From contig CP136063.1 of assembly GCA_032622095.1 (NCBI GenBank), forward strand, positions 186,351,956 through 186,415,955: a stretch of 64,000 nucleotides of DNA, written 5' to 3'. Source of the stretch: Siphonodentalium dalli. Lineage: Eukaryota > Mollusca > Scaphopoda > Gadilida > Siphonodentaliidae. The stretch's first letter is position 1. Every line of letters starts with the position of its first letter. Positions 15,783-62,762 of the stretch are shown here, piece by piece. The notes beneath the pieces were generated by a model. That model saw only the letters and a program-made list of their open reading frames with translations. It did no database searches and was not told where the DNA came from. Made by a program: the position numbers and the translations under genes.

Positions 15783-17089
15783 TTTAATTATTTGGATCAC
15801 GCTGAATGTTTGGCTTTTATCCAATAAACAATTGAATTGAATTAATACATTTTATTTCATTAAAAGAGTATTCTTTAATTAATTTCATACATTTGAATCT
15901 GAAACCAAAATTAAATACTAGCCTGCAACTTAATATAGTTAGACTAGACTCCTGATTTACTGAAAAAAATAATTAATATTCAGTATTTATATGATATTTG
16001 TATATCAATATTAATATTATTTGAATATAAATAACACGATGATTCTAGTTTCTGCATCATATATAGGCTAAAATAAACCAACGTCCGATAAATACTATTT
16101 AAAAGCGCAATATATCGGCACTGCTTGAGTTAAACCAGCAGTCTAGACTAATTATAAGTTGCAGGCTAGTAATATTTAATTTTGGTTTCAAATTCAAATG
16201 TATGAAATTAATTAAAGAATTCACTTTTAATTAAAAAATAAAAGTTATTAATTCAATTCAATTGTTTGTTGGATAAAAGCAAAATATTCAGCGTGATCCA
16301 AATAATTAAAGTCGCGAAAATACTATCTATACACATTTCGGACTCGATATAAACGGCAGTTACGCTACAACATCATCATGCTAAAAAAAACTTGCGAGAT
16401 CACAGTTTTTATGAACCCAACTCCAAAATAGTTTTGGTATGTCGTGGTGTTCGTCAGTAAATTTTGACTGATTTTCACCAGAGAATAACGCAACATTATT
16501 CTATCGAAAAGTAACGTTATGTTATTTTTTGTTGTGTTCAGGATATCCCCCTTTTTCACATTGATAAAAGTTAAAATAAATATTTAAAACCTAGTTTTTA
16601 TTGGTAAGATGATCATATATACGGTTAAAATACTTAGGTAAAAGTTGTGTTGCGTTGTGTGAATTTGGAGTTATCCCTCCTGTATCTGGGATCTTATACA
16701 GTGGAGATTTACCGATTCCAATCGAGTACCATTCGACTGTTTCTGGGGGAAGAACAGTAAACAAATAAAAAAATATGATCTAGAAAGATCAAAAATGTGA
16801 TGTACAATCGTAAACCAATCTCACAATTACCGCCAAGCAAACTGCAGGAAGAACAAGAAAACCATAGTCAGAAATGGTAACGCCACCAAGATCGTATTAT
16901 TAGCCATAAATATAAATAATAATACAATTATTCTATAAACTAGCTTTCAAATTTTATGCGGGAAATTTGCGTACTTCCATATTTCAAGTTTTCCCGTTTC
17001 TCGTGGCATACATTACTTTCATCAAACTGTCTTCTTTATTACACAAGCTGATAGGCCCGACTTCACCCGGGCTGTTTCCCATCTGCTTT

Positions 17090-17605
17090 CCGGTGAAAGG
17101 TGCGATTTGACCTTCAATTGACTATTTCGAAAGTCAAGGTCAGGTCAGGGTCATGATTTGTCCAGTCAAAAACACCCCCACCCGTAGAAAACTACCCATA
17201 GGTATCAAATTTCGTCGAAATCCGTCCGTTTTACCCAACTTGACCTTTAATTAACAATTTTGAAGGTCAAGGTAAGGTCAGAGTCATGATTTGACCCGTC
17301 CAAAACACCCCCCCCCCGACAAAAGTACCCATAGGTATCAAATTTCGTCGAAATCTATCCGTTTTATCCGAGTTGACCTTTGATTGGCCATATTGAAGGT
17401 CGAGGTCACGATTTGACCCGTTCAAAACTCTCCTCGGACCAAAGTATCCCTAGGTATCAAATTTCGCCGAAATTTGTCCGTTTTACCCAAATTGACCTTG
17501 CATTGACAGTTTTAATGGTCAAGGTCAGGTCGGGGTCACGATTTGACCCGTTCAAAACACTTCCCGGACACAAATACCCATAAGTATCAAATTACGTTGA
17601 ATTCT
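17090..17605 (+). repeat. 115-bp tandem array in family D copy 1
   Basis: About four units share 'ttgacctt...attgac', GGTCAAGGTCAGGTC, GATTTGACCCG, AAAACAC and GTATCAAATTTCGTCGAAAT. The equivalent array in copy 2 lies at 19355-19880. Confidence 0.8.
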
Positions 17606-18174
17606 ATGGAAAGCCGAGGAGGACATGTTGGTTGCTAATTGCTAGATATACGACGCGGTATTTTGAAGGTGTTTCAAACTAGGAGATAGAAGTATTCTGC
17701 CTTTCAAATGGTGATGAATTATAGTAGTTTATTCAAATTTTATGGCATAAATTGTTATTAAAACCGTATATACTATAAAAAATTAATGAGTCGAAAATTA
17801 AGTGGGCCTTTAAACAAAGTCACAATTGCATTTAGGCTCATCTCATACTCGTCCATTCAGCGATATTCTACTGCGCAGTTTGTTATAGCCTCCAGTATTT
17901 ATTGAGCGTTATACCCCCAACTGTTATATATTAGGTCACACATAATCACATTAAATCGCATCGTAACATAGCAATTGTGTGGGCTCCTTGGCGTGAATAT
18001 GTAATGAGAAATAAGGTCATACGTAATGACATTAAACTCAAGAAAACCCTCGAAAACAAAACAAAATCACATTTAATGTTTTACGTTATTTCCTTCATAA
18101 AAAGAATCTTCGTGATAATGAACCCTCTCGTTACTTTAGAATATAGAATTAACCTTAAAATAAAAAAAATCTTT

Positions 18175-18290
18175 GGAACACAGAACCTTCGGAATAACGA
18201 ACCTTCGGATTGGTGAACCTTCGGAATAGCGAACATTCAGAGAAATTTCGGAATAGTGGACCTTCGGGATAGTGAACCTTCGGAATAGAG
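18175..18290 (+). repeat. 17-bp minisatellite GAACCTTCGGAATAG
   Basis: Six to seven imperfect units with the core GAACCTTCGGAATAG(C). Smaller blocks of the same unit occur at 18718-18780, 20495-20610 and 21045-21110, always in family D elements. Confidence 0.8.
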
Positions 18291-19116
18291 ACATGCCCCC
18301 CAATATTCATATTATATGCCCAGAGTTCAAAGGTATGGACCCATAAAATTCTAAACTTGGCCCTTAAAATATTGAACTCCAAATTGGAGCACACACAGAA
18401 CACCACTTAAGTCAACTGAACCTATGTCATGTCCCAATGCGGGAGGGTCCATATATACCACAACATTCATAGTATATGCCAAGAATTCAAAGGTATGGGC
18501 CCACGTAATGACATAAAATCTCAAGAAAACCAGCGAAAACAAAACAAAATCACATTTAATGTTCTAAGTTAAGTTATTTCCTCCTGTATCTGTATCGGTG
18601 TGCGCGCATGATCAGTTCGGATGTGAGCGCACACTCCATATAAAGAATCTTTGTGAAAATGAACCCTCTCAAATTAGTCTCAATACTTTAAAATATAGAA
18701 TTAACCTAAAAATAACAAAAACCTTCGGAATAGAGAACCTTCGGAATAGCGGACCTTCGGGATAGCAAACCTTCATAATAGAAGCATGTCCCCACAATTA
18801 CACCGGTGACGTAAACACATGTGCCAATCTTAGTTGTACTCTCGTAATTATCGGTACGATGAAACGGTGACGGAATCTGACGAGGTTTGCCGAATGTACA
18901 ATCACCCAGTGAATTATCGATCGACCATGCGATATCAAAAAACCAAAAGCTAGAAACACCACACTACGGTGGCGTAATAAAAGCGCCACATTCACCGGTG
19001 GAGTATTTATTATGTTTAGAGTTACCGAACTTGAAAAGTGGGATAACTTTTCTGTACGGGATTCTCCTTATTGCTTTTTGACCAAATTTACATTACAATC
19101 GGACACATCTTCTACA

Positions 19117-21298
19117 AGAAAATCATAGTCAGAAATGGTAACGCCACCAAGATCATATTATTAGCCATAAATATAAATTATAATACAATTATTCTATAAA
19201 CTAGCTTTCAAATTTTATCTGGGAAATTTGCATACTTCTATATTTCAAGTTTTCCCGTTTCTCGTGTTATACATTACTTTCTTCAAACTGTCTTCTTTGT
19301 TACACAAGCTGATGGGCCCGACTTCGTCCGGGATGTTTCCCATCTGATTTCCGGCGAAAGGCGCGATTTGACCTTCAATTGACTATTTCGAAAGTCAAGG
19401 TCAGGTCAGGGTCGTGATTTGACCCGTCCAAAACACCCCGACCCGGAGAAAAGTACCACTAGGTATCAAATTTCGTCGAAATCCGTCCGTTTTACCCCAC
19501 TTGACCTTTAATTAACAATTTTGAAGGTCAAGGTAAGGTCGGAGTCATGATTTGACCCGTCCAAAACACTCCCCCGACAAAAGTACCCTTACATGTAGGT
19601 ATCAAATTTCGTCGAAATCCATCCGTTTTACCCGATTTGACCTTTGATTGAACACATTGAAGGTCAAGGTCACGCCGATGTCACGATTTGACCCGTTCAA
19701 AACACTCCCCGGACAAAAGTAACCCTAGGTATCAAATTTCGCCGAAATGTGTCCGTTTTACCCAAATTGACCTTGCATTGACAGTTTTAAAGGTCAAGGT
19801 CAGGTCGGGCTCACGATTTGACCCGTCCAAAACACTCCCCGGACACAAATACCCATAAGTATCAAATTACGTTGAAATCTATGGAAAGCCGAAGAGGACA
19901 TGTTAGTTGCTAATTGCTAGATATAAGACGCACGACTTGTCGCGGTATTTTAAAGGTGTTTCAAACTAGGAGATAGAAGGATTCTGCTTTTCAAATGGTG
20001 ATGAATTAATAAATTTATTCAAATTTTATGGCATAAATTGTTATTAAAACCGTATATACTATAAAAAAAATGAATGACTCGAAAATTAAGTGGGTCTTTA
20101 AACAAAGTCACAATTACAGTTATGCTCATCTCATACTCGTTTAATCAGCGATATTCTGCTGCGCAGTTTGTTATAGTTCCCAGTATTCATTGAGCGTTAT
20201 AGCCCCACTGTTATAATTCGCCTTTAGCAGGCGTACTCTTGCCTCAGATTATTGAGATATTAGGTCACACGTAATGACATTAAATCGCATGGAAACATAG
20301 CAATTGTGTGGGCTGCTTGGCGTGAATATTTAATGAGAAATAAAGTCATACGTAATGACATTAAACTCAAGAAAACCCGCGAAAACAAAACAAAATCACA
20401 TTTAATGTTTTAAGTTATTTCCTTCATAAAAAGAATCTTCGTGATAATGAACCCTCCCAATACTTTAGAATATAGAATTAAAATAACAAAAACCTTCGGA
20501 ATACAGAACCTTCGGAATAACGAACCTTCTGATTGGTGAACCTTCGGAATAGCGAACATTCAGAGAAATTTCGGAATAGTGGACATTCTGGATAGTGAAC
20601 CTTCGTAATAGAGACATGCCCCCAATATTCATATTATATGCCCAGAGTTCAAAGGTATGGGCCCATAAAATCCTAAATTTGGCCTTAAAATATTGAACTC
20701 CAAATTGGAGCCCACACAGAACATCACTTAAGTCAACTGTACCTGTGTCATGTCCCAATGCGGGAGGGTCCACAATATACCACAACATTCATATTATATG
20801 CCAAGAATTCAAAAGTATGGGCCCACGTAATGACATTAAATCTCAAGAAAACCCGCGAAAACAAAACAAAATCACATTTAATGTTCTAAGTTAAGTTATT
20901 TCCTCCTGTAGGCCTATCTGTATCGGTATGCGCGCAGGATCAGTTCGGATGTGAGCGCACACTCCGTTAAAAGAATCTTTGTGATAATGAACCCTCTCAA
21001 ATTAGTCTCAATACTTTAGAATATAGAATTAACCTAAAAATAACAAAAACCTTCGGAATAGAGAACCTTCGGAATAGCGGACATTCGGGATAGCGAACCT
21101 TCATAAAAGAAACATGCCCCCACAAGTACACCGGTGACGTAAACACATGTGCTAATCTTTGTTGTACTATCGTGACTCTATCGGTACGATTTATACTCAG
21201 TACGAAATAACCATAATAATACAGTCGCCCAGTGGATTATCGATCGACCACAGAATATGAAAATCTGCGTACCAAGCAACACCACGGTGTGGCGTAAT
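19117..21298 (+). mobile_element. Family D element, copy 2
   Basis: A second head-to-tail copy about 2265 bp downstream of the first, starting CAAGAAAATCATAGTCAGAA and ending GTGTGGCGTAATAA, with the same internal order of 115-bp array, 17-bp minisatellite and unique end. The two copies differ by scattered substitutions and small indels. Its end lies only 8 bp before the 9-bp target repeat of the giant palindrome. Confidence 0.75.
19355..19880 (+). repeat. 115-bp tandem array in family D copy 2
   Basis: This has the same units and order as at 17090-17605, with one unit carrying an extra ACATGT insertion near 19590. Confidence 0.8.
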
Positions 21299-21305
21299 AA
21301 ATGTG

Positions 21306-21314
21306 CAATTTTGC
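21306..21314 (+). repeat. 9-bp target-site duplication, left (CAATTTTGC)
   Basis: CAATTTTGC, separated by one C from the GGACCT terminus of the palindrome. The identical 9-mer directly follows the opposite terminus at 35933-35941. Confidence 0.75.
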
Positions 21315-21315
21315 C

Positions 21316-21545
21316 GGACCTCCTATTTACCGAGAACAACCGAGAACAACCGAGAACAAGTCTAAAATTAATAATTAAGTCTTAATAATGTTCAATTATA
21401 GTGTACATATCAATCTTAAGTTAATATTATACCATAGTTGACATTTTAAATGACATATATGTAGTTATTATTGGTATATACCGAGAAGTTGAAACATCGC
21501 GCAGCCGCTGTTCTTGTTCTCGGTTGGCGGTAACACAAAGACATA
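21316..21545 (+). repeat. Left terminal region of the giant palindrome
   Basis: Starts GGACCTCCTATTTACCGAG with three ACCGAGAAC repeats and is closed by CTTGTTCTCGGTTGGCGGT near 21535, so the terminal 0.23 kb itself holds inverted AACCGAGAACAAG motifs that could bind a transposase. The right counterpart is 35730-35932, which has two instead of three ACCGAGAAC repeats. Confidence 0.7.
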
Positions 21546-21550
21546 AGCCG

Positions 21551-21958
21551 TGCCTAGGTGTTAATTAACTAAGAACTAGCTGCGTGATATGTCTGATTTT
21601 CATTAAAATGTTAACTTTTATGCATTGTAACTGAGATATTCTTAACCAATTGTAATGGTTAATATATCTAGCGGAAATCTTGTTTAAAGTTTTGCTTCTT
21701 AACTTCAATGGAAGTTTTGGTTCTTAACTTCTTATGGGACATGTTCTTCATATAATAAGCTACCACCATCAGTATGGTATTGGTTCCGAAAATAATAATA
21801 ATGGTAAGCAATGTCATATATCTTCTGATTCAATTCTGTATATTGCTTGCGTGATTAACAGTTATCTGCACCAAATATAATTCAACTCAATGAAATTTGA
21901 TCACCAATCAGACCCATCATGCAGCTAGTACTTAGTTAATTAACACCTCTAGAGGCAC
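21551..21958. mobile_element. 0.4-kb MITE present only in the left arm
   Basis: The left end TGCCTAGGTGTTAATTAACT and the right end, read inward as TGCCTCTAGAGGTGTTAATT, continue as inverted repeats for about 50 bp (AACTAAG.ACTAGCTGC). The mirrored position in the right arm (about 35717-35727) reads straight through, GACAATACTACTCACGGC, with no insert. The insertion therefore postdates the palindrome. Confidence 0.8.
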
Positions 21959-21982
21959 GGCAGTAGTATTGTCTACCCTTTC

Positions 21983-24278
21983 GGGTAGACGGTTTGACTG
22001 CCTAAACCCTAAGCGCCTGTTCCTGTGCCATCAGGGGATTATAGGTCACGCCGCGTGGGTGTATATATCGGTGAAGGTTATCACGCGTTATCGTGGCGGA
22101 TATCGCTAGGCCAATGACGAACCAAATAATTCCGCAACAAGCGGCCCAAGGTTATCACGAGAATAGCGCCTAATTATTGCGGGTACTAAACAATGCGTGT
22201 ATATATGTCTAAATGATATCTCTCTCGTGTTAACCCTACCGCTTATCGCATATTCATGTAATATGAAAGAAAATATATACTCGGGTGACTGCTATCAGAG
22301 GTATATATTAATCACGAGAATAACTCGCCAACGTCGCGCGCGGTAGCGATAAACCAGATCGCGTGTACTATACACAGTGGTACATAATATATGTATTGGT
22401 TTGACTGCCTAAACCCTAAGCGCCTAATCCTGAGCTATCAGGGTGGGGTTATATGTCACGCCGCGTGGGTGTATATGGGCGAATGTTATCACGATAATAG
22501 CGCCTCATTATCGCGGGTACTAAACAATGCGTGTATATCTAAACGATATATCCCGCGCGTTAACCCTACCGCTTATCGCCTGCGTTTCCGATAAACGATA
22601 TATCCATCGCGTTAACCCGAGAGCTTATCGCCTATCAATGTAATATGAAATAAAATAGGGTGTGTGTACTAGGGATATAGGTTATCCGCAGTATTTGATC
22701 AAGGTATATATTAATACGCGGGTATATAATCGTAAGTATTTGTTTTTTTGTCACGGAAGTAAAAGCATTATTGAAGACTTCCAATAGACTATATCTGAGA
22801 AATTTCTCGCGCACAAATTCTATAGTTATAGTTATTATAATATAGTGATTATTGTAAGCCTAATAAATCTGATAACAGGGATATACTAATGCACTATACG
22901 GTCTGGCAGTTCTTTCGATGGTTCAACAAAGAAACCTCTTCAATATTTATCCGGCACCTTATGGGGGGGGGGGGGTGTTACTTCACCGAGAATCCCTATT
23001 ACCACACCCAAATATTGATATAGTGGTATGTCTCCACCCACACCCCTATATTTATATCTATGTTGATGCGTGTATACATATTTACTTGATGTATTCTTTA
23101 ATCATTCATTTCTCTTTATTATCGTTCATTTATAGCATTATTAGAAGAAATTTAGTCTAAAATCTCCATTACATAGAGACAATAAAGAGCCCATATGGTG
23201 TAGACTAATACATAAATACTTACTTCATATATTCGTTTCACCAATTATATGTATTATACATCCTATACATTTAGTCTGTTATACAGAGGAAACAAAGCAT
23301 ATACTACGTGGCAGTTTCATATGACGATAAGACCTACTATGTGAACACATGTGCATATTAATTTCACATATTCTTCTCAAAACGTTTTATTTTATACGGG
23401 GGTATCAAACATTGGTCTGGAAAAGGCCTGCTATGTGGACGCGCGTATACATATTGACTTCATATATACATTCATAGTTCATTTCTCTTAATTATCGTTC
23501 ATTTAATAGCATTATTAGTAGAAATATAGTCTAAAACCGTCGGTATATGGAGAATATATAGCGTCAATACTGTTTTATTGTTGGTAACTCAAATTATTGC
23601 ATCATATATCGCAACTAAACAAGCGACACAACTCATAAATTCTTAATAGTTCTGATGTCTATGGCAGTTCACAGAGTGTATATTTTCATTGTTGTTACCA
23701 TTTTAGTGCATGCATTACTGATTTCTGTGTAAGAACGCTGGTCTCCATTGTTGTTATGATTGTGCCTATAACTGTCCATATTCTTAAAGCAAGTACGGTA
23801 CCTCTATGTGATATGATGTATAAATATTTCCATTTTCATAGGTAAATCACGTATAAACGCTCTTTAATGTATAGTTAAACGGAGTTTTCACATGCAGGGC
23901 TATGTCTTTGTGGACTATATACGTGGTATACTTCAGTATATACACGAAGTGAATGTGTTCTAAGTATGCGTATCTGATTTATGTATACATCCGTGTTTCT
24001 TAAAGCAAATCCAATACACATTAGTGCGTTATATTATGATGTACATTAAGTGCCCTTTTCACTGTTAAATCAAGTAAAAAAGCCCTCTACTATAGTTAAC
24101 TATTCAGTTCCACATACGCTATAAGCTCTATGGTGGTCCGGTGTGTCTTATCAATATGCCATTATATGCACGAATGTAATGTGTTCAAATATGTGGGTTA
24201 TGATGTATACTTTAATGTTAAAGTATATAAGCACTCTTTAAGATATGCATATGCAGAATGTTGCCTCTTTACACTGAC
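21983..24278 (+). repeat. 2.3-kb unit U1, left arm
   Basis: The first of two direct 2298-bp units. Inside it a segment of about 400 bp is itself duplicated: GGTTTGACTGCCTAAACCCT and GGGTACTAAACAATGCGTGT each occur twice. Motifs such as TTAACCCTACCGCTTATCGC recur like iterons. It mirrors 33403-35698. No convincing gene is present; the short frames that recur four times are copies of the same DNA. Confidence 0.85.
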
Positions 24279-26577
24279 TCGGGTAGATGGTTTGATCATG
24301 ATTTGCTCCCCTCCTGTTCCTGTGCCATCAGGGGATTATAGGTCACGCCGCGTGGGTGTATATATCGGTGAAGGTTATCACGCGTTATCGTGGCGGATAT
24401 CGCTAGGCCAATGACGAACCAAATAATTCCGCAACAAGCGGGCCAAGGTTATCACGAGAATAGCGCCTAATTATTGCGGGTACTAAACAATGCGTGTATA
24501 TATGTCTAAATGATATCTCTCTCGTGTTAACCCTACCGCTTATCGCATATTCATGTAATATGAAAGAAAATATGTACTCGGGTGACGGCTATCAGAGGTA
24601 TATATTAATCACGAGAATAACTCGCCAGCGTCGCGCGCGGTAGCGATAAACCAGATCGCGTGTACTATACACAGTGGTACATAATATATGTATTGGTTTG
24701 ACTGCCTAAACCCTAAGCGCCTAATCCTGAGCTATCAGGGTGGGGTTATATGTCACGCCACGTGGGTGTATATGGGCGAATGTTATCACGATAATAGCGC
24801 CTCATTATCGCGGGTACTAAACAATGCGTGTATATCTAAACGATATATCCCGCGCGTTAACCCTACCGCTTATCGCCTGCGTTTCCGATAAACGATATAT
24901 CCATCGCGTTAACCCGAGAGCTTATCGCCTATCAATGTAATATGAAATAAAATAGGGTGTGTGTACTAGGGATATAGGTTATCCGCAGTATTTGATCAAG
25001 GTATATATTAATACGCGGGTATATAATCATAAGTATTTGTTTTTTTTGTCACGGAAGTAAAAGCATTATTGAAGACCTCCAATAGACTATATCTGAGAAA
25101 TTTCTCGCGCACAAATTCTATAGTTATAGTTATTATAATATAGTGATTATTGTAAGCCTAATAAATCTGATAACAGGGATATACTAATGCACTATACGGT
25201 CTGGCAGTTCTTTCGATGGTTCAACAAAGAAACCTCTTCAATATTTATCCAGCACCTAATGGGGGGGGGGGGGGTGTTACTTCACCGAGAATCCCTATTA
25301 CCACACCCAAATATTGATATAGTGGTATGTCTCCACCCACACCCCTATATTTATGTCTATGTTGATGCGTGTATACATATTTACTTGATGTATTCTTTAA
25401 TCATTCATTTCTCTTTATTATCGTTCATTTATAGCATTATTAGAAGAAATTTAGTCTAAAATCTCCATTACATAGAGACAATAAAGAGCCCATATGGTGT
25501 AGACTAATATATAAATACTTACTTCATGTATTCGTTTCACCAATTATATGTATTGTAGATCCTATACATTTAGTCTGTTATACAGAGGAAACAAAGCATA
25601 TACTACGTGGCAGTTTCATATGACGATAAGACCTACTATGTGAACACACGTGCATATTAATTTCACATATTCTTCTCAAAACGCTTTATTTTATACGGGG
25701 ATATCAAACATTGGTCTGGAAAAGGCCTGCTATGTGGACGCGCGTATACATATTGACTTCTTATATACATTCATAGTTCATTTCTCTTAATTATCGTTCA
25801 TTTAATAGCATTATTAGTAGAAATATAGTCTAAAACCGTCGGTATATGGAGAATATATAGCGTCAATACTGTTTTATTGTTGGTAACTCAAATTATTGCA
25901 TCATATATCGCAACTAAACAAGCGAGACAACTCATAAATTCTTAATAGTTCTGATGTCTATGGCAGTTCACAGAGTGTATATTTTCATTGTTGTTACCAT
26001 TTTAGTGCATACATTACTGATTTCTGTGTAAGAACGCTGGTCTCCATTGTTGTTATGATTGTGCCTATAACCGTCCATATTCTTAAAGCAAGTACGGTAC
26101 CACTATGTGATATGATGTATAAATATTTCCATTTTCATAGGTAAATCACGTATAAACGCTCTTTAATGTATAGTTAAACTGAGTTTTCACATGCAGGGCT
26201 ATGTCTTTGTGGACTATATACGTGGTATACTTCAGTATATACACGAAGTGAATGTGTTCTAAGTATGCGTATCTGATTTATGTATACGTCCGTGTTTCTT
26301 AAAGCAAATCCAATACACATTAGTGCGTTATATTATGATGTACATTAAGTGCCCTTTTCACTGTTAAATCAATTAAAAAAGCCCTCTACTATAGTTAACT
26401 ATTCAGTTCCACATACGCTATAAGCTCTATGGTGGTCCGGTGTGTCTTATCAATATGCCATTATATGCACGAATGTAATGTGTTCAAATATGTGGGTTAT
26501 GATGTATACTTTAATGTTAAAGTATATAAGCACTCTTTAAGATATGCATATGCAGAATGTTGCCTCTTTACACTGAC
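24279..26577 (+). repeat. 2.3-kb unit U2, left arm
   Basis: A direct copy of U1 starting GGGTAGATGGTTTGATCATG, where U1 has GGGTAGACGGTTTGACTGCC. It shows unit-specific substitutions, such as ATGTACTCGGG where U1 has ATATACTCGGG, and these are mirrored in the matching right-arm unit 31104-33402. Confidence 0.85.
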
Positions 26578-26794
26578 AGAAAAAAAAAAGGAATATATAA
26601 TTTTGAGTACTACTCTTCATAAAACGTTAGAAAACCATAATCTAACAACGAATATCGAAGAACAACGTAATTACTTGATAAGCATTGTAAATATTTCGTC
26701 TGTTTTAAATAAAATGGAAATATTTCGTCTATTTGAAATACAGTTGGAAGCAACAATCAAGTATTTAAATGAAATTTGGACCAAAATCTTATAA
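26570..26794 (+). CDS. Protein-like frame in arm, left copy
   Basis: An open frame just inside the U2 boundary ends with a helix-like, mixed-charge sequence containing LENHNLTTNIEEQRNYL and LFEIQLEATIKYLNEIW, then a stop at 26792. The matching frame on the minus strand of the right arm (30887-31112) is also open. No ATG of its own is obvious near the start, and I recognise no family. It could be the tail of a captured exon or chance in AT-rich DNA. Confidence 0.2.
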   Translation, partial: TLTEKKKEYIILSTTLHKTLENHNLTTNIEEQRNYLISIVNISSVLNKMEIFRLFEIQLEATIKYLNEIWTKIL

Positions 26795-26799
26795 TTTGA

Positions 26800-27319
26800 G
26801 AAAACGTATATAATTTCTATCGAAGTCTTATAATAAAGGAAGGCTTTGTGCGAATCCATTCGGTCTAATGTGTGAATGTGTTCTTCATCGCAAATATAAT
26901 GATGCAGAAATTAATACTTCCTAGAAAAATGTTAACATAGCCTGTATTTAACCGAAATAATATAGCATTTGAGTTAAAATATTTCATATTAGGACCATAA
27001 CGAACCAATGCATAAAAATATAATATTTAGTTTTTCAGTCTCGATCAAAATAATGCAGGGTTGTCAATTATCAACAAAAAAACAAATACTTTGAAACAAA
27101 AACGATGACATAAGAACGAATATCCAAGAGCTAGTGTGAAAATAACCCTCACATTTATAAAAAAACAAAACAATAAAAATTCAGTTTTCGAGTCAGTCCT
27201 TCAAAATTATTGAATGTTTTCGTCTATGTTGGATCAAATTTAACACAAAAATCAATTAGCTCACTAACAGTTCGCGCAATATCTCATATTTTGAGAAAAC
27301 GTTTACAATTTTAGACAAC
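26800..27319. other. AT-rich spacer of the left arm
   Basis: There is no repeat unit or gene here; the stretch separates the U2 unit from the 265-bp array and mirrors 30362-30882. Confidence 0.4.
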
Positions 27320-28465
27320 AATATTGCTAGTAAAGGTGAATATTTCATCCTGGAACTCATGAAATATGATAAAAATAGATGTAAAGACACTTCACGAGCC
27401 CTCATATCTTTGAGTTATGAACATAAAGTCATCTCATAGTGCCATTGTACCCCATAATTTGGTCAGGAGAAATATGTATTTCATATTTGACCCTTCATCT
27501 ATGGTAAAAAATGAATTAAGGGACACGGGAGTGGTGTCCTACACATTAACCTAGAGCATAAATTGACTCAATTTTACAATTTTAGGCAACATTCTTGCCA
27601 GGGAAAGTGTATATATCATGTTGGAACTCATCAAATATGATAAACATGCATCAAAAGACACTTACTGAGCTCTGATGACTTTGAGTTATGACAACAACGG
27701 CATCTCATACTAGATTGTAAGCCATAATTTGGTCAGGAAAAGTGTAAATTTCATATTTTATCCTACAAGTGTTTTAACAATCAATGTAATTACACCCCAT
27801 CGGTCGCCTAGACACAGCGTAAATGTTCTCAAGTTTTCAACTGTAGGCTACAATGTCGGTAGTGAAGGTAAACATTTCATGTTGGAACCCATGAAATGTC
27901 TTTTTATCCATTTTATCACATTTCATGAGTACTTATCACGGAGTTATGAACATAAAGGGACCTCATAGTGTATTGTAGGTCATAATTTGGTCAGGAAAAT
28001 TGTAAATTTCATGTCTTAAGCTCCATGTGTTTAAAAAATATATTTAATTACAGCCATTGGGTCCCTAGATATCAACCCACAGTCCATATGTAGTCCATAT
28101 GCAATTTTAGGGAACAGTGTTGCTAGTGAAGGTGAACATTCCATGCTGGAACTCATGAAATATGATAAAAATAGATGAAAAGACACTTTCTGAGGCCTTG
28201 GTCAGGAGAAATGTGTGTTGTATTTTGACCCTTGATGCGTGGTAGCAATCAATGAAATTACACCCCATGGTATCCTCAGATATGAAGCAACATCATAAAT
28301 GCACTCAGTTTTGGCAATTTAGAAAACATTGTTGATAGGGAAGTTGTACATGTCATGTTGGAACTGGTGAAATGTGATAATAATTGATCAAAAGACACTC
28401 GATGAGCCCTGACGGGTTTCAATTATGGTCATAAAGGCATCTGATAGTGTCATTATACAACGGGG
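27320..28465 (+). repeat. Degenerate tandem array of about 265 bp, left arm
   Basis: Four to five units share TGTTGGAACTCATGAAATAT, 'aaaagacact...gag', GTTATGAACATAAAG and ATAATTTGGTCAGGA. Units start near 27320, 27590, 27850, 28112 and 28326, and the last ones are shortened. Divergence between units is far higher than between the two arms. The mirror lies at 29216-30361. Confidence 0.8.
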
Positions 28466-28606
28466 AAATTTGTGAAGCGCTAACAAAGCGTATCTACACG
28501 GTGTTATACGATCCAAAATGATCCTGATATAAGAAATGCAATCTAGATCATACTCAGTATCTTCGTATCGACTGAATATATCGTTATTCGATGGTGATCC
28601 CGACAT
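28388..28606 (-). CDS. Short acidic frame near the palindrome centre, left copy
   Basis: Read away from the centre, an ATG at 28606 opens a 72-codon frame beginning MSGSPSNNDIFSRYEDTEYD, followed by a hydrophobic-helical part, then drifting into the tandem array, which supplies the last 25 codons. The right copy is 29074-29292 on the plus strand. It is intact in both arms. The first 45 residues look protein-like, but no family is recognised and no promoter is evident. Confidence 0.25.
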   Translation of the reverse strand: MSGSPSNNDIFSRYEDTEYDLDCISYIRIILDRITPCRYALLALHKFPRCIMTLSDAFMTIIETRQGSSSVF

Positions 28607-28826
28607 ACCTCCGTCTTTACTTTTCTTATGCCTTTGTAGATTGTAGTTCGTCGATAATATATTTCTGAACAAATGGCACCCGGGTATTATCTCGAATCAT
28701 GGGAAGAACTATCGTCCTTATACCAACGAAAAGATGAGCGAATATGGTGTGGTATTATCAACTCGCCGCGCTCGTACCTCTATTTATCGTTTAGAGTTAT
28801 TGTTCTTAGATAAAAAAATAGGCGCG

Positions 28827-28854
28827 CGTGCGGCCCCCTCATCCCCACTGCCGC
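28827..28854. other. GC-rich spacer at the palindrome centre
   Basis: Twenty-eight bases, mostly G and C (CCCCCTCATCCCCACTGCC on the plus strand), separate the two arms GGCGCG and CGCGCC. The composition contrasts with the AT-rich arms. It is the only part of the palindrome without a mirror copy, apart from the 0.4-kb MITE and small indels. Confidence 0.85.
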
Positions 28855-29073
28855 CGCGCCTATTTTTTATCTAAGAACAATAACTCTAAACGATAAATAG
28901 AGGTACGAGCGCGGCGAGTTGATAATACCACACCATATTCGCTCATCTTTTCGTTGGTATAAGGACGATAGTTCTTCCCATGATTCGAGATAATACCCGG
29001 GTGCCATTTGTTCAGAAATATATTATCGACGAACTACAATCTACAAAGGCATAAGAAAAGTAAAGGCGGAGGT

Positions 29074-29292
29074 ATGTCGGGATCACCATCGAATAACGAT
29101 ATATTCAGTCGATACGAAGATACTGAGTATGATCTAGATTGCATTTCTTATATCAGGATCATTTTGGATCGTATAACACCGTGTAGATACGCTTTGTTAG
29201 CGCTTCACAAATTTCCCCGTTGTATAATGACACTATCAGATGCCTTTATGACCATAATTGAAACCCGTCAGGGCTCATCGAGTGTCTTTTGA
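29074..29292 (+). CDS. Short acidic frame near the palindrome centre, right copy
   Basis: The mirror of 28388-28606, with the same 72-codon frame from the ATG at 29074. A substitution just upstream (GGCGG here, CGTCT on the mirrored plus strand) is the visible difference between arms. The frame is open upstream to a TGA at 28981 but has no earlier ATG. Confidence 0.25.
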   Translation: MSGSPSNNDIFSRYEDTEYDLDCISYIRIILDRITPCRYALLALHKFPRCIMTLSDAFMTIIETRQGSSSVF

Positions 29293-30361
29293 TCAATTAT
29301 TATCACATTTCACCAGTTCCAACATGACATGTACAACTTCCCTATCAACAATGTTTTCTAAATTGCCAAAACTGAGTGCATTTATGATGTTGCTTCATAT
29401 CTGAGGATACCATGGGGTGTAATTTCATTGATTGCTACCACGCATCAAGGGTCAAAATACAACACACATTTCTCCTGACCAAGGCCTCAGAAAGTGTCTT
29501 TTCATCTATTTTTATCATATTTCATGAGTTCCAGCATGGAATGTTCACCTTCACTAGCAACACTGTTCCCTAAAATTGCATATGGACTACATATGGACTG
29601 TGGGTTGATATCTAGGGACCCAATGGCTGTAATTAAATATATTTTTTAAACACATGGAGCTTAAGACATGAAATTTACAATTTTCCTGACCAAATTATGA
29701 CCTACAATACACTATGAGGTCCCTTTATGTTCATAACTCCGTGATAAGTACTCATGAAATGTGATAAAATGGATAAAAAGACATTTCATGGGTTCCAACA
29801 TGAAATGTTTACCTTCACTACCGACATTGTAGCCTACAGTTGAAAACTTGAGAACATTTACGCTGTGTCTAGGCGACCGATGGGGTGTAATTACATTGAT
29901 TGTTAAAACACTTGTAGGATAAAATATGAAATTTACACTTTTCCTGACCAAATTATGGCTTACAATCTAGTATGAGATGCCGTTGTTGTCATAACTCAAA
30001 GTCATCAGAGCTCAGTAAGTGTCTTTTGATGCATGTTTATCATATTTGATGAGTTCCAACATGATATATACACTTTCCCTGGCAAGAATGTTGCCTAAAA
30101 TTGTAAAATTGAGTCAATTTATGCTCTAGGTTAATGTGTAGGACACCACTCCCGTGTCCCTTAATTCATTTTTTACCATAGATGAAGGGTCAAATATGAA
30201 ATACATATTTCTCCTGACCAAATTATGGGGTACAATGGCACTATGAGATGACTTTATGTTCATAACTCAAAGATATGAGGGCTCGTGAAGTGTCTTTACA
30301 TCTATTTTTATCATATTTCATGAGTTCCAGGATGAAATATTCACCTTTACTAGCAATATTG
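29216..30361 (-). repeat. Degenerate tandem array of about 265 bp, right arm
   Basis: The reverse-complement counterpart of 27320-28465, with the same unit order and the same unit-specific truncations. Confidence 0.8.
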
Positions 30362-30886
30362 TTGTCTAAAATTGTAAACGTTTTCTCAAAATATGAGATA
30401 TTGCGCGAACTGTTAGTGAGCTAATTGATTTTTGTGTTAAATTTGATCCAACATAGACGAAAACATTCAATAATTTTGAAGGACTGACTCGAAAACTGAA
30501 TTTTTATTGTTTTTTTTTTTTTATAAATGTGAGGGTTATTTTCACACTAGCTCTTGGATATTCGTTCTTATGTCATCGTTTTTGTTTCAAAGTATTTGTT
30601 TTTTTGTTGATAATTGACAACCCTGCATTATTTTGATCGGGACTGAAAAACTAAATATTATATTTTTATGCATTGGTTCGTTATGGTCCTAATATGAAAT
30701 ATTTTAACTCAAATGCTATATTATTTCGGTTAAATACAGGCTATGTTAACATTTTTCTAGGAAGTATTAATTTCTGCATCATTATATTTGCGATGAAGAA
30801 CACATTCACACATTAGACCGAATGGATTCGCACAAAGCCTTCCTTTATTATAAGACTTCGATAGAAATTATATACGTTTTCTCAAA

Positions 30887-31112
30887 TTATAAGATTTTGG
30901 TCCAAATTTCATTTAAATACTTGATTGTTGCTTCCAACTGTATTTCAAATAGACGAAATATTTCCATTTTATTTAAAACAGACGAAATATTTACAATGCT
31001 TATCAAGTAATTACGTTGTTCTTCGATATTCGTTGTTAGATTATGGTTTTCTAACGTTTTATGAAGAGTAGTACTCAAAATTATATATTCCTTCTTTTTT
31101 TTCTGTCAGTGT
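30887..31112 (-). CDS. Protein-like frame in arm, right copy
   Basis: The mirror of 26570-26794 and still open; the end of the frame is identical in sequence. The A-run at the U2 junction differs in length between arms, so the two frames differ upstream of it. Confidence 0.2.
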
Positions 31113-33402
31113 AAAGAGGCAACATTCTGCATATGCATATCTTAAAGAGTGCTTATATACTTTAACATTAAAGTATACATCATAACCCACATATTTGAAC
31201 ACATTACATTCGTGCATATAATGGCATATTGATAAGACACACCGGACCACCATAGAGCTTATAGCGTATGTGGAACTGAATAGTTAACTATAGTAGAGGG
31301 CTTTTTTAATTGATTTAACAGTGAAAAGGGCACTTAATGTACATCATAATATAACGCACTAATGTGTATTGGATTTGCTTTAAGAAACACGGACGTATAC
31401 ATAAATCAGATACGCATACTTAGAACACATTCACTTCGTGTATATACTGAAGTATACCACGTATATAGTCCACAAAGACATAGCCCTGCATGTGAAAACT
31501 CAGTTTAACTATACATTAAAGAGCGTTTATACGTGATTTACCTATGAAAATGGAAATATTTATACATCATATCACATAGAGGTACCGTACTTGCTTTAAG
31601 AATATGGACGGTTATAGGCACAATCATAACAACAATGGAGACCAGCGTTCTTACACAGAAATCAGTAATGTATGCACTAAAATGGTAACAACAATGAAAA
31701 TATACACTCTGTGAACTGCCATAGACATCAGAACTATTAAGAATTTATGAGTTGTCTCGCTTGTTTAGTTGCGATATATGATGCAATAATTTGAGTTACC
31801 AACAATAAAACAGTATTGACGCTATATATTCTCCATATACCGACGGTTTTAGACTATATTTCTACTAATAATGCTATTAAATGAACGATAATTAAGAGAA
31901 ATGAACTATGAATGTATATATGAAGTCAATATGTATACGCGCGTCCACATAGCAGGCCTTTTCCAGACCAATGTTTGATACCCCCGTATAAAATAAAGCG
32001 TTTTGAGAAGAATATGTGAAATTAATATGCACGTGTGTTCACATAGTAGGTCTTATCGTCATATGAAACTGCCACGTAGTATATGCTTTGTTTCCTCTGT
32101 ATAACAGACTAAATGTATAGGATCTACAATACATATAATTGGTGAAACGAATACATGAAGTAAGTATTTATATATTAGTCTACACCATATGGGCTCTTTA
32201 TTGTCTCTATGTAATGGAGATTTTAGACTAAATTTCTTCTAATAATGCTATAAATGAACGATAATAAAGAGAAATGAATGATTAAAGAATACATCAAGTA
32301 AATATGTATACACGCATCAACATAGACATAAATATAGGGGTGTGGGTGGAGACATACCACTATATCAATATTTGGGTGTGGTAATAGGGATTCTCGGTGA
32401 AGTAACACCCCCCCCCCCCCCCCATTAGGTGCTGGATAAATATTGAAGAGGTTTCTTTGTTGAACCATCGAAAGAACTGCCAGACCGTATAGTGCATTAG
32501 TATATCCCTGTTATCAGATTTATTAGGCTTACAATAATCACTATATTATAATAACTATAACTATAGAATTTGTGCGCGAGAAATTTCTCAGATATAGTCT
32601 ATTGGAGGTCTTCAATAATGCTTTTACTTCCGTGACAAAAAAAACAAATACTTATGATTATATACCCGCGTATTAATATATACCTTGATCAAATACTGCG
32701 GATAACCTATATCCCTAGTACACACACCCTATTTTATTTCATATTACATTGATAGGCGATAAGCTCTCGGGTTAACGCGATGGATATATCGTTTATCGGA
32801 AACGCAGGCGATAAGCGGTAGGGTTAACGCGCGGGATATATCGTTTAGATATACACGCATTGTTTAGTACCCGCGATAATGAGGCGCTATTATCGTGATA
32901 ACATTCGCCCATATACACCCACGCGGCGTGACATATAACCCCACCCTGATAGCTCAGGATTAGGCGCTTAGGGTTTAGGCAGTCAAACCAATACATATAT
33001 TATGTACCACTGTGTATAGTACACGCGATCTGGTTTATCGCTACCGCGCGCGACGCTGGCGAGTTATTCTCGTGATTAATATATACCTCTGATAGCAGTC
33101 ACCCGAGTACATATTTTCTTTCATATTACATGAATATGCGATAAGCGGTAGGGTTAACACGAGAGAGATATCATTTAGACATATATACACGCATTGTTTA
33201 GTACCCGCAATAATTAGGCGCTATTCTCGTGATAACCTTGGCCTGCTTGTTGCGGAATTATTTGGTTCGTCATTGGCCTAGCGATATCCGCCACGATAAC
33301 GCGTGATAACCTTCACCGATATATACACCCACGCGGCGTGACCTATAATCCCCTGATGGCACAGGAACAGGAGGGGAGCAAATCATGATCAAACCATCTA
33401 CC
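31104..33402 (-). repeat. 2.3-kb unit U2', right arm
   Basis: The inverted counterpart of 24279-26577. It shares U2-specific variants (CCCGAGTACAT, CGACGCTGGCGAG) rather than the U1 forms, so the arms pair unit by unit. Confidence 0.85.
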
Positions 33403-35698
33403 CGAGTCAGTGTAAAGAGGCAACATTCTGCATATGCATATCTTAAAGAGTGCTTATATACTTTAACATTAAAGTATACATCATAACCCACATATTTGAA
33501 CACATTACATTCGTGCATATAATGGCATATTGATAAGACACACCGGACCACCATAGAGCTTATAGCGTATGTGGAACTGAATAGTTAACTATAGTAGAGG
33601 GCTTTTTTACTTGATTTAACAGTGAAAAGGGCACTTAATGTACATCATAATATAACGCACTAATGTGTATTGGATTTGCTTTAAGAAACACGGATGTATA
33701 CATAAATCAGATACGCATACTTAGAACACATTCACTTCGTGTATATACTGAAGTATACCACGTATATAGTCCACAAAGACATAGCCCTGCATGTGAAAAC
33801 TCCGTTTAACTATACATTAAAGAGCGTTTATACGTGATTTACCTATGAAAATGGAAATATTTATACATCATATCACATAGAGGTACCGTACTTGCTTTAA
33901 GAATATGGACAGTTATAGGCACAATCATAACAACAATGGAGACCAGCGTTCTTACACAGAAATCAGTAATGTATGCACTAAAATGGTAACAACAATGAAA
34001 ATATACACTCTGTGAACTGCCATAGACATCAGAACTATTAAGAATTTATGAGTTGTGTCGCTTGTTTAGTTGCGATATATGATGCAATAATTTGAGTTAC
34101 CAACAATAAAACAGTATTGACGCTATATATTCTCCATATACCGACGGTTTTAGACTATATTTCTACTAATAATGCTATTAAATGAACGATAATTAAGAGA
34201 AATGAACTATGAATGTATATATGAAGTCAATATGTATACGCGCGTCCACATAGCAGGCCTTTTCCAGACCAATGTTTGATACCCCCGTATAAAATAAAAC
34301 GTTTTGAGAAGAATATGTGAAATTAATATGCACATGTGTTCACATAGTAGGTCTTATCGTCATATGAAACTGCCACGTAGTATATGCTTTGTTTCCTCTG
34401 TATAACAGACTAAATGTATAGGATGTATAATACATATAATTGGTGAAACGAATATATGAAGTAAGTATTTATGTATTAGTCTACACCATATGGGCTCTTT
34501 ATTGTCTCTATGTAATGGAGATTTTAGACTAAATTTCTTCTAATAATGCTATAAATGAACGATAATAAAGAGAAATGAATGATTAAAGAATACATCAAGT
34601 AAATATGTATACACGCATCAACATAGATATAAATATAGGGGTGTGGGTGGAGACATACCACTATATCAATATTTGGGTGTGGTAATAGGGATTCTCGGTG
34701 AAGTAACACCCCCCCCCCATAAGGTGCCGGATAAATATTGAAGAGGTTTCTTTGTTGAACCATCGAAAGAACTGCCAGACCGTATAGTGCATTAGTATAT
34801 CCCTGTTATCAGATTTATTAGGCTTACAATAATCACTATATTATAATAACTATAACTATAGAATTTGTGCGCGAGAAATTTCTCAGATATAGTCTATTGG
34901 AAGTCTTCAATAATGCTTTTACTTCCGTGACAAAAAAACAAATACTTACGATTATATACCCGCGTATTAATATATACCTTGATCAAATACTGCGGATAAC
35001 CTATATCCCTAGTACACACACCCTATTTTATTTCATATTACATTGATAGGCGATAAGCTCTCGGGTTAACGCGATGGATATATCGTTTATCGGAAACGCA
35101 GGCGATAAGCGGTAGGGTTAACGCGCGGGATATATCGTTTAGATATACACGCATTGTTTAGTACCCGCGATAATGAGGCGCTATTATCGTGATAACATTC
35201 GCCCATATACACCCACGCGGCGTGACATATAACCCCACCCTGATAGCTCAGGATTAGGCGCTTAGGGTTTAGGCAGTCAAACCAATACATATATTATGTA
35301 CCACTGTGTATAGTACACGCGATCTGGTTTATCGCTACCGCGCGCGACGTTGGCGAGTTATTCTCGTGATTAATATATACCTCTGATAGCAGTCACCCGA
35401 GTATATATTTTCTTTCATATTACATGAATATGCGATAAGCGGTAGGGTTAACACGAGAGAGATATCATTTAGACATATATACACGCATTGTTTAGTACCC
35501 GCAATAATTAGGCGCTATTCCCGTGATAACCTTGGGCCGCTTGTTGCGGAATTATTTGGTTCGTCATTGGCCTAGCGATATCCGCCACGATAACGCGTGA
35601 TAACCTTCACCGATATATACACCCACGCGGCGTGACCTATAATCCCCTGATGGCACAGGAACAGGCGCTTAGGGTTTAGGCAGTCAAACCGTCTACCC
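33403..35698 (-). repeat. 2.3-kb unit U1', right arm
   Basis: The inverted counterpart of 21983-24278, with U1-specific variants (CCCGAGTATAT, CGACGTTGGCGAG). The poly-C run near 34710 is shorter than its mirror. Confidence 0.85.
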
Positions 35699-35729
35699 GA
35701 AAGGGTAGACAATACTACTCACGGCTTAT

Positions 35730-35932
35730 GCCTTTGTGTTACCGCCAACCGAGAACAAGCATGTTTCATCTTCTCGGTATATACCCATAATAACTACATA
35801 TATGTCATTTAAAATGTCAAATATGGTATAATATTCACTTAAGATTGATATGTACACTATAATTGAACATTATTAAGACTTAATTATTAATTTTAGACTT
35901 GTTCTCGGTTGTTCTCGGTAAATAGTAGGTCC
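35730..35932 (-). repeat. Right terminal region of the giant palindrome
   Basis: The inverted match of 21316-21545, ending TCGGTAAATAGTAGGTCC. It lacks a roughly 17-bp stretch (CGCGCAGCCGCTG...) found in the left terminus and has one ACCGAGAAC unit fewer. Confidence 0.7.
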
Positions 35933-35941
35933 CAATTTTGC
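35933..35941 (+). repeat. 9-bp target-site duplication, right (CAATTTTGC)
   Basis: Identical to 21306-21314 and directly adjoins the GGTCC terminus of the palindrome. Confidence 0.75.
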
Positions 35942-36002
35942 GTACTAGTTATCGCACCTCCGTACTCTCCGTCGATTCCGCTCAAATCGGTAAGCCGATT
36001 CG

Positions 36003-36029
36003 ATGCAGAATGAGGTCCCCAGAGGGTTA
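36003..36029 (-). repeat. Solo TTAA terminus, family 4
   Basis: GCAGAATGAGGTCCCC followed by AGAGGGTTAA is the reverse complement of the TTAACCCTCTGGGGACCTC terminus at 62229, another TTAA-bounded family. Its partner end near here was not identified. Confidence 0.45.
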
Positions 36030-36657
36030 ATTTGGTGATGCTAGCCCGAGGGTGACGATTGTGTTGATCAGTGTACGCCCTATAGGCTATAGCTCAATCA
36101 TCGCCGATTTGAGTTGAGGGAATCCGTGTTTCAATGTTGATGGGGGCCATGGGGCGCCATTCTTCTGTTTATTATGTACGTACAGGTCTATTTTCTGATA
36201 TTCATCACAAAATCGAATATATTTACCTACTATATATATTTTGAGATGGCGTATATGTGTGTATATACTTTATAGAATCGAAAACGGCTGGAGCGATCGA
36301 GACCAAACTTCCCATCTAAGGATACAAATCCACGGGAATGGTCGTCGCGGCATTTTGGAGAAGCTCAGAGCACCCGTTCTCCACCCTCATTTAGTAAAAA
36401 AAAAACGGCACTGCGGAGTTAATCGCGGTGATAGTTAAAGAGCGTTCGTATCCACAGTGTCGCTGATAAAGAGCGTCTATATATATACACTTGATAAAGA
36501 GCGTCTATATACACGACGAGTATAAATACGGCTCCATTGACCGTCTTGAGGCGAAATTTCGTACTTAATTTCGTACTTAGGGCTTCCTAGGAACGGGGGA
36601 CATTTTCATCGGGTCAGTTTTTCCGCCCGAGATGATCTTCACATTGAAACGGGTACC

Positions 36658-47575: not shown

Positions 47576-48120
47576 CTCGAAATGTGTGATTGGGCAAAAT
47601 GCTCCAGGGCAAAAATAAAAAACTTTGATCTATATAGCAACTGTTAGCTATACTTCATCATATGTAGGAACATCATGCTCCTAAAGCCAAATATATTTTC
47701 AAAAAGTGAATGTAAATTGAACAAAAGCTCTGGTTAATAATAAAGTTAAATTGCATGAAAAAGTTTTGTTTACATATTTCATAAAATTATTGAAAATATT
47801 TACCCCGAAAGAGGAGTCTAGCGACCTTGCTGGCCGTTTACATATTATCTTCAATTTTCTAACGGTATTTCCGCCTAAAAAAATTATGAAATATTCTCAA
47901 GTTCAAGGCCGACAAACGGAAACTTTAAGTTCAGATTGAAAGATCGCAGAGTCATTTTAGGATTGCTTCTTGGGAAACCAGTAAAGGCGTCATGACATCA
48001 AGACGTACGTCATGACGTCACTACCTACACCGGCGCGCAAAATTCCAGACAGGACTGCGTCGATGGCCAGACAGCTGAGACTCGTATTACATGGCAAGCT
48101 AAATATCCACATTTACGTTA
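47573..48120 (+). repeat. Direct repeat K, copy 2
   Basis: The second copy, about 940 bp after the first. Its continuation (CATTTACGTTATAT, then GTGATTATTTACATA) is interrupted by about 500 bp at 48121-48625, which copy 1 lacks. Confidence 0.8.
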
Positions 48121-48284
48121 TATAAGGATTAACTGTCATGTGGACTGTTTTTATGGAGATGTAACGGTGAGATAAGTGGACATAACTTGTGTAAAACCCG
48201 AAGGGTTTTACATACAAGTTATGTCCACTTACCTCACCGTTACATCTCCATAAAAATAGTCCACATGACAGTTAATCCTTATAT
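48121..48284. repeat. 164-bp near-perfect hairpin
   Basis: TATAAGGATTAACTGTCATG and TGGACTGTTTTTATGGAGAT pair with their complements on the right, closing at AAAACCCGAAGGGTTTT. It sits at the start of an insertion into direct repeat K copy 2. Confidence 0.9.
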
Positions 48285-52941: not shown

Positions 52942-53422
52942 ACAGTAATGTCCAAAGTAATTGATCACTTAACCACAGCAAAATTATGGGTATTTTTTCA
53001 TGATTTTAAATCCTGAAAAATTACCCATAATTATGCTGTGGTTAAGTGGTCAATTACTTTGGGCATTACTGTAACCAATATAAGGATTTGAGGTTTAATG
53101 ATAACTCAATCCTCATACAGTAATGTTCAAAGTAATTGACCACTTAAGCACAGCAGAATAATGGGTAATTTATCAGGATTTTAAATGCTGAAAAAATACC
53201 CATAATTCTGCTGTGGTTAAGTGGTCAATTACTTTGGGCATTACTGTAACCAATATAAGGATTTGAGGTTTAATGATAACTCAATCCTCATACAGTAATG
53301 TTCAAAGTAATTGACCACTTAACCAGAGCAGAATTATTTGTAATTTTTCAGGATTTTAAATCCTGAAAAATTACCAATAAGTCTGATCTGGTTAAGTGGT
53401 CAATTACTTTGGGCATTACTGT
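52942..53422 (+). repeat. Triple tandem array of a TA-flanked hairpin MITE (family F)
   Basis: Three hairpins (52942-53072, 53116-53249, 53291-53422) each pair ACAGTAATGTCCAAAGTAAT, TGACCACTTAACCACAGC with the complement ending GGGCATTACTGT. They repeat every 175 bp together with the same linker (AACCAATATAAGGATTTGAG). The MITE plus its flank was therefore amplified in tandem rather than inserted three times. The ends resemble Tc1/mariner-type MITEs (CAGTA with TA flanks). Confidence 0.85.
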
Positions 53423-56226: not shown

Positions 56227-56706
56227 TTTAAAGGTACTCAATCCGATCAGACGCTTCTAAATTACTATTTCTTTGGCTTCGGGGATAACAAATATTTGAT
56301 TCGAGTCGAGGAACTCACCCATCAAAGCTCAGAGTGATCAGATATTGATTTTTGAAGTTTGTTATTTCTCGAGATGTGTACTAATAATTGTCACAGAAAC
56401 ACGAGGTCAGACGGACATTTTGCGGATGAAGATGGATAACTCTAAAATCAAGTGGTAATAATAACCACTTGATTTTAGAGTTGTCCATCTTCATCCGCAG
56501 TTTTGACCGAAACCACCCTTTTGACGGCGTGTAATTATTGGGCCACAAACAATAGAAATAATAAACTTCAAAAATCCATATCTGATCACTCGGACCGTTG
56601 ATGGGTAGGTTCCTCGACTCGAATCAAATATTTTTTACCCCCTGAAGCCAAAGAAATAGTAATTTAGAAACCAACAACATTTGAGTACAGTATATATCCC
56701 TTTAAA
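56227..56706. mobile_element. Family A foldback MITE, copy 6
   Basis: Starts TTTAAAGGTACTCAATCCG, ends CCCTTTAAA after a decayed GAGTACAG. At its centre CTAAAATCAAGTGGTAAT is immediately followed by its complement, making the fold-back nearly perfect. It lies 215 bp downstream of the channel gene. Confidence 0.85.
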
Positions 56707-62502: not shown

Positions 62503-62762
62503 TAACTCTTTCATGATGGGAGCTGCGCTGGTGCAGCATTAAAGGTCATGTGTCAGTGCATTCTCTTAAATATCAGAGTCTGCCATAGAGAGCCTAACAT
62601 ATATAAGATAATGTACTGGCTTACAAGGTCAAGGTAAATATTGTTTGGCCAATGTATTCTCTTATATATGCGAGGTTCCCCATGGAAGACTTGCATATAT
62701 AAGAGAATGCATTTGGCACAGGGTTTTCACATTTTCAGGAGGCTCCAGTCATGGAAGGGTTG
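62503..62762 (-). mobile_element. Family 1 MITE, copy 3 (inverted)
   Basis: TAACTCTTTCATGATGGGAG to CAGTCATGGAAGGGTTGA, the reverse complement of copies 1 and 2, with the same internal order of CATATATAAGAGAATGCA words. It lies in the proposed 1.4-kb intron. Confidence 0.8.

Follow-up and report, generated by a model that had tools for sequence, protein, structure and literature searches.

A giant palindrome in the scaphopod Siphonodentalium dalli as a probable non-autonomous derivative of Maverick/Polinton elements

The stretch of DNA analyzed here (the window) comprises 64,000 nucleotides of Siphonodentalium dalli (C3:186351956-186415955, in a genome of 2.23 Gb with nine contigs, abbreviated C) and contains a palindromic element of 13,758 bp at positions 21962-35719 (C3:186373917-186387674). 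We consider it very likely that this element is a giant, non-autonomous and palindromic derivative of a Maverick/Polinton transposon, which is mobilized in trans and is kept symmetric perhaps via a hairpin intermediate. Two transposons are nested at this locus: the palindrome was inserted as a unit into a small transposon, and six base pairs of the target were duplicated. The repeat CAATTTTGC and the GGACCT ends which frame the whole locus are a property of the outer small transposon, not of the palindrome.

Nested insertion and the palindrome family

The self-comparison of the window yields an inverted alignment of 13.77 kb at 99.6% identity from 21962 to 35719, so that the palindrome assumed in a preliminary description of this DNA is confirmed. 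Its left arm (21962-28826, forward) and right arm (28854-35719, reverse) enclose an asymmetric center of 27 bp (28827-28853), the would-be hairpin loop; away from this center the alignment of the arms contains 11 substitutions and 7 gap columns. The near-identity ends at 21962 and 35719, and 21553-21961 has no right-hand counterpart; a separate outer inverted match (21339-21552 with 35720-35919) reaches 91%. Both ends of the element read AGTAGTAT, i.e. they are terminal inverted repeats beginning with 5'-AG, and a second direct repeat, CACGGC, directly abuts them from outside (21956-21961 and 35720-35725).

The preliminary description had regarded the whole 14.6 kb (21306-35941) as one foldback or long-terminal-inverted-repeat cut-and-paste transposon with a 9-bp target site duplication (TSD). 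The outermost ends are indeed inverted repeats, and CAATTTTGC lies outside both of them (21306-21314 and 35933-35941), being found nowhere else in the window by a scan of the plus strand. A search with 300 bp from position 21306 returned 46 matches (best 40 of 683 candidates scored), and 20 copies were retrieved (L001-L020). These match the window at 21315-21961 (terminal repeat and inner part, forward) and 35720-35932 (right end, forward), have the same ends and lack the palindrome. Eighteen of the 20 show the left and right junction sequences side by side, with an overlap of exactly six bases (CACGGC in 17, CACAGC in one), while the unfilled junction is unreadable in that form in L007 and L020; the 20 copies are not all independent, as common flanks occur in L002 and L004 and among L014, L015, L016, L018 and L019. 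Taken together with CACGGC on both sides, the unfilled sites mean that a small element received the palindrome and that 6 bp of this element were duplicated in the process. For the small family the TSD can be read as 8 bp which one further base separates from GGACC in 15 of 21 copies, the window included (AATTTTGC plus C; 21307-21314 on the left and 35934-35941 on the right), the remaining six not being readable in this way. With a TSD of 6 bp, and with CAATTTTGC belonging to the small element, the palindrome does not qualify as a foldback or Mutator-like element, the TSDs of which measure 8-10 bp. Since it also occurs at other loci without the outer ends and with 6-bp duplications, the reading as a 14.6-kb unit is refuted and we assign it practically no probability. 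What stands of the preliminary description is the movement of the palindrome as a unit, the limits of this unit being 21962 and 35719. Near 21596-21598 the copy of the small transposon in the window lacks approximately 440 bp that are present in L001 (723-1165), between the terminal repeat and the inner part.

Elsewhere in the genome the outer 500 bp of the palindrome likewise occur as inverted pairs (118 matches; best 40 of 431 candidates scored), and the recurrence of a 13.8-kb palindrome excludes chance. A second copy (C4:145158856-145172615) has arms that are 99.6% identical over 6,231 bp, and in an element with other ends (C1:30374148-30388475) the parts of the arms that were read are identical over 2,253 bp and show one mismatch over 3,551 bp. 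The central loop has 138 matches in the genome with at most three mismatches (80 forward and 58 reverse, 100 of them listed and used), compared to none for the control; copy numbers from such loop and terminal patterns are approximate. It is near-identical in 16 elements in either orientation, which indicates a single origin of their core palindrome. The core (25357-32325) is common, at about 97%, to palindromes ending in TGATGAT instead of AGTAG, and in a genome search with it (best 40 of 1,226 candidates scored) 15 elements of differing length could be placed in a listed terminal pair; 14 of the 15 carry the core at their midpoint within 7 bp. The loop lies within 10 bp of the midpoint in 15 of 19 elements. 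One and the same core carries two kinds of ends, which are alike on both sides. A terminal 28-mer of the TGATGAT family has 209 forward and 209 reverse matches; among the 100 of these 418 that were listed, 94 could be paired by hand and six remained unpaired. Of the resulting 47 pairs 34 span 12.9-14.4 kb and 13 span 2.5-9.0 kb. An exact 6-bp duplication is found at 21 of the 22 elements, palindromes and related Mavericks, that were read at both junctions.

These observations bear on two further explanations. Large palindromes are known to arise by segmental duplication, and an ordinary inverted duplication formed in place and equalized by gene conversion would account for near-identical arms. 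It does not agree with a palindrome present at many loci in unrelated flanks, with precise ends, 6-bp duplications and unfilled sites, and appears to us extremely improbable. An assembly artefact, from hairpin reads or from collapsed copies, has to be considered because inverted artefacts do arise in long-read libraries; unique flanks that differ between the two sides but carry the same 6-bp repeat (21 of 22 elements), a loop conserved in both orientations and arms with small differences make it very unlikely.

Gene-bearing relatives

The preliminary description had supposed that the palindrome depends on a partner elsewhere, and gene-bearing relatives with the same termini were found. The terminal 29-mer of the element (21962-21990, forward; 35691-35719, reverse) matches the genome at 224 places, 110 of them forward and 114 reverse (control 0), and the 100 listed ones form plus/minus pairs 4-21 kb apart. 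Pairing by hand used 76 of them and left 24 unpaired. The resulting 38 pairs comprise 15 with the polymerase, 10 with the palindrome core or arm, none with both and 13 with neither. The polymerase search behind this tally used the C-terminal part (657 aa) as the only query and gave 71 genome matches (best 67 of 1,074 candidates scored); as L055 and L058 contain N-terminal pieces of the polymerase, they are tallied under neither, and the 15 include the palindrome at C4:258044278 described below. The similarity extends over approximately 208 bp (21962-22169, forward), which are 79-86% similar to the ends of gene-bearing Mavericks, with the mirror copy at 35512-35719 (reverse) in an arm that is 99.6% identical. 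At one further locus a palindrome of 13.76 kb (C5:242504371) is identical over 190 bp at one end to L058, an 8-kb polymerase-bearing derivative.

Two of the pairs are about 20 kb long and were each read as two pieces (L059-L062). They possess terminal repeats of about 345 bp and exact 6-bp duplications, and encode an integrase with chromodomain (PF00665, PF00385), a deoxynucleoside kinase (PF01712), a PC4-like protein, an ATPase with a sub-threshold match to Pox_A32, an adenovirus-protease-like protein (PF00770, sub-threshold) and capsid-like proteins. The large polymerase frame of L061 is 1,517 aa long and probably of B-type; it contains the motifs DANALY, KVIGNSAYG and DTD, which we take to be marks of a B-type polymerase. 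PHROGs returned a weak endonuclease match alone for this frame, and phmmer against PDB chains returned 99 matches to the polymerase, the best 60 being zinc-finger proteins that align at its N-terminus. The termini shared with gene-bearing copies, together with the integrase, ATPase, protease-like and capsid-like genes, identify the partner class, judged by sequence, as Maverick/Polinton.

Another type of Maverick in this genome has a PolB of 952 aa that passes PF03175. Identity between this type and the AGTAG type is 38% for the integrase, 42% for the ATPase and 33% for the capsid-like proteins, and the large polymerase of the latter gave nothing significant in a BLASTP comparison with the 952-aa type. 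No Pfam family was matched by the capsid-like protein of L059; the label presumably holds on account of gene position and of homology to the 952-aa type. This type was also considered as parent of the palindrome and rejected: the copy at C2:129.36 Mb has the ends AGAAGATAGAGGG and a duplication CAAGGT, and the pieces of it that were compared show no similarity to the window element at the DNA level. Uninterrupted Polinton-type PolB frames of about 952 aa occur with close scores (e.g. C2:129360768-129362480), and there is also a type of about 1,312 aa (best 69 of 1,596 candidates). Given so many close-scoring, uninterrupted frames, Mavericks look recently active here.

The elements with AGTAG ends form a graded series, in which the terminal repeats measure 214, about 345, 1,121, 1,853 and 2,571 bp and a 5.6-kb copy is palindromic almost throughout. 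Two copies are palindromes that bear genes. The first (C4:258044278-258059760; L085, L086) has ends of the AGTAG type and is flanked by the duplication ACTGCA. Its two polymerase genes point towards one another, and its arms are 99.5-99.6% identical in two stretches, with approximately 127 bp extra on the left. Its left arm tracks the non-palindromic Maverick L061 from the end through the polymerase gene. The second (C2:112170973-112186662; L087, L088) is built in the same way, with facing polymerase genes, arms that are 99.3% identical over 7.78 kb and a duplication GTTGGG. In the coordinates of L061 the C4 copy turns from 8031 to approximately 7844 and the C2 copy from 7957 to approximately 7791. 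The two probably represent separate origins, in each of which the same genome end was doubled and the other lost, and fold-backs of this kind beside the polymerase gene suggest how palindromes start.

Three smaller derivatives are mentioned for completeness. In L054 (C1:25661230-25669637) the polymerase runs forward to residue ~1039 and is then inverted (1341 to 1058), as if at a further fold-back point. L056 (C4:211507316-211512931) and L057 (C1:217858806-217863062) are small, largely palindromic Maverick derivatives; both AGTAG-ended copies, of 5.6 and 4.3 kb, keep an ATPase-like frame (32-36% identical to that of the large Maverick), and apart from a zinc-finger match in L056 no other gene was recognized in them. 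They are perhaps satellites with a packaging function of their own.

Concerted change of the arms and a possible hairpin stage

The two halves of a palindrome tend to change together. On approximately 647 bp in 16 elements the arms of one element differ by 0.94 mismatches on average, compared to 8.4 between elements, and four elements (L049-L052) are identical to each other. In the core of these 16 elements, mirrored variation from element to element affects 41 of 619 columns, and arm-to-arm differences occur in 16 of the 9,904 element-by-column cells; this count drops six columns with asymmetry in 12 or more of the 16 elements as well as the last 25 columns, the dropped columns being located beside the center and at the end of the alignment. 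A cruder count for the core in 12 elements, which still included such columns, came to 654 mirrored differences and 374 in one arm when all pairs were added up. Between C1:30374148 and C9:46600329 all 44 differing columns in the outer 2.24 kb (22 of them gaps) are mirrored and none is confined to one arm. Comparing the window with the C4:145158856 copy, 69 substitutions are mirrored and 20 are found in one arm. Larger changes are paired as well: the window element contains a tandem duplication of a 2.26-kb unit in both arms (22016-24278 and 24313-26577, forward; 31105-33371 and 33406-35665, reverse; from the self-comparison). There are also sub-repeats GTTATCACG. This paired change of the halves suggests that a hairpin stage may occur during copying.

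A palindrome would originate when the replicating strand of a linear Maverick folds back, so that one genome end is copied twice and the other is lost. Autonomous Mavericks with the same ends would supply polymerase and integrase in trans. During replication the displaced strand, being self-complementary, could snap into a hairpin of full length, in which mismatch repair between the arms would transfer mutations, indels, duplications and exchanged ends to both sides; likewise, once copying has passed the loop, a change in the half-element would be present in both arms. The helper integrase would finally insert the copy and leave the 6-bp duplications, which are typical of the Maverick integrase. 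Release of single strands by linear genomes that are copied from their ends by strand displacement is described for phage phi29 (PMC4974454).

Going one step further, palindromic Mavericks might be satellite replicons that exist as hairpins of half the length. The replicating form would be a single strand folded on itself, of which one end is usable; the helper polymerase would copy it round the loop into the full palindrome, and the helper integrase would insert the product. We put this forward tentatively, as somewhat short of an even chance. As each cycle would pair arm with arm, the element would be copied, repaired and recombined as a half. If true, this would explain the mirrored mutations, indels and tandem duplications as well as the joint exchange of both ends, and the palindrome would compete with its helper Maverick at little cost, as a defective interfering element.

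The same data can be read as a palindromic Maverick derivative whose arms were equalized by chromosomal gene conversion after insertion, with no hairpin stage. Close inverted repeats readily convert. Two points speak against chromosomal conversion, neither of them decisive: the two copies compared above retain differences in one arm (20 substitutions in all), and both ends were exchanged together on one core, which is simpler with the half-element as the unit. We hold this reading to be a serious possibility, if a little below even odds.

A number of observations weigh against our interpretation as a whole. Regarding symmetry, the mirrored differences fit arm-to-arm conversion equally well; the gap columns between the window and the C4:145158856 copy are six mirrored and 22 in one arm; L081, one of the 16 elements, has five mismatches between its own arms and three to the nearest other element; and the loop is off-center by 144-1,547 bp in four of the 19 elements, all of the AGTAG type. 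Regarding origin, the bases shared at the two turning points number zero and one, which leaves priming by fold-back a hypothesis. Regarding the assignment to Mavericks, no Maverick gene was recognized in the window element by comparison with Maverick proteins, and beyond approximately 208 bp its arm has no match in the gene-bearing copies compared. Part of the large polymerase frame matches PF03175 with an E-value of 2e-4, which is under the cut-off, and the duplication at C5:242504371, one of the 22 elements, contains one mismatch. The TGATGAT ends are not 5'-AG, and no gene-bearing element with these ends was seen, although no search was aimed at one.

Comparison with known elements and neighboring sequences

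Mavericks, their integrase and 6-bp duplications are already known, as are foldback elements; 6-bp TSDs and 5'-AG ends belong to the defining features of Mavericks, and their mode of replication has largely been deduced from gene content. The gene set comprises PolB, a DDE integrase, protease, ATPase and capsid genes (PMC6431247). The window element resembles Mavericks in its 6-bp TSD, its 5'-AG ends and the termini of gene-bearing copies, but differs in being palindromic from end to end, in its long non-coding arms, in a core that also occurs with TGATGAT ends and in having no recognized genes. Since the genes are seen in the partners (L059-L062) and none was recognized in the window element, it is a derivative and not an autonomous Maverick. 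A coding role of the palindrome was considered and rejected: the longest stop-to-stop frame is 131 aa and is not preserved in the TGATGAT-type relative, and Maverick proteins have no match in the element. Rfam gave no family at the gathering score over 21000-36200.

Tm1 of root-knot nematodes is described, in the part of PMC3169594 at hand, as a foldback element of about 1 kb. Its inverted repeats are composite and vary in length, non-autonomous copies of it are mobilized in trans, and its duplications are mostly of 9 bp (8-10). With Tm1, to the extent of that account, the window element has composite long inverted repeats and a predicted mobilization in trans in common, whereas its 6-bp duplication and Maverick termini set it apart. 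The long inverted repeats with sub-repeats of foldback or Mutator-like elements represent a likeness of form only.

Symmetric defective adenovirus genomes of the SYREC type carry one end duplicated as a palindrome and have lost the other. This anatomy is that of the C4 and C2 gene-bearing palindromes, which appear to double one end of a linear genome and to lose the other; for the window arm no parent was found beyond the outer ~208 bp. Unlike SYREC, palindromic Mavericks are chromosomal insertions with target duplications that became amplified in the genome. As in miniature inverted-repeat transposable elements (MITEs) and internally deleted DNA transposons, the palindromes are gene-less, presumably reliant on the enzymes of a relative and numerous, yet they are far longer than MITEs and symmetric over their whole length. 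We found no report of full-length palindromic Mavericks or Polintons in the open-licence literature searched.

The palindromic derivatives and the likely gene-bearing intermediates provide chromosomal evidence on Maverick replication, which points to fold-back of one genome end, as would be anticipated for linear genomes that replicate from their ends, and the hairpin stage becomes directly testable. In addition, the palindromes appear to form a natural system of satellites that accompany an endogenous virus-like element, and they supply one genome with numerous large inverted repeats.

Several minor features were observed in and around the window. On its left the outer small transposon adjoins a sequence of about 2.3 kb with internal repeats of about 130 bp, which is tandemly duplicated at 90-93% (16853-21190). 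CCCTAA repeats are present at the start of C3, and there are none in the parts read of the starts of C1, C2 and C8 and of the end of C3. Five short self-inverted stretches of 150-480 bp are located at 48120-48284, 52942-53422, 56255-56669, 58499-58702 and 62557-62711, and are probably small hairpin-shaped transposons.

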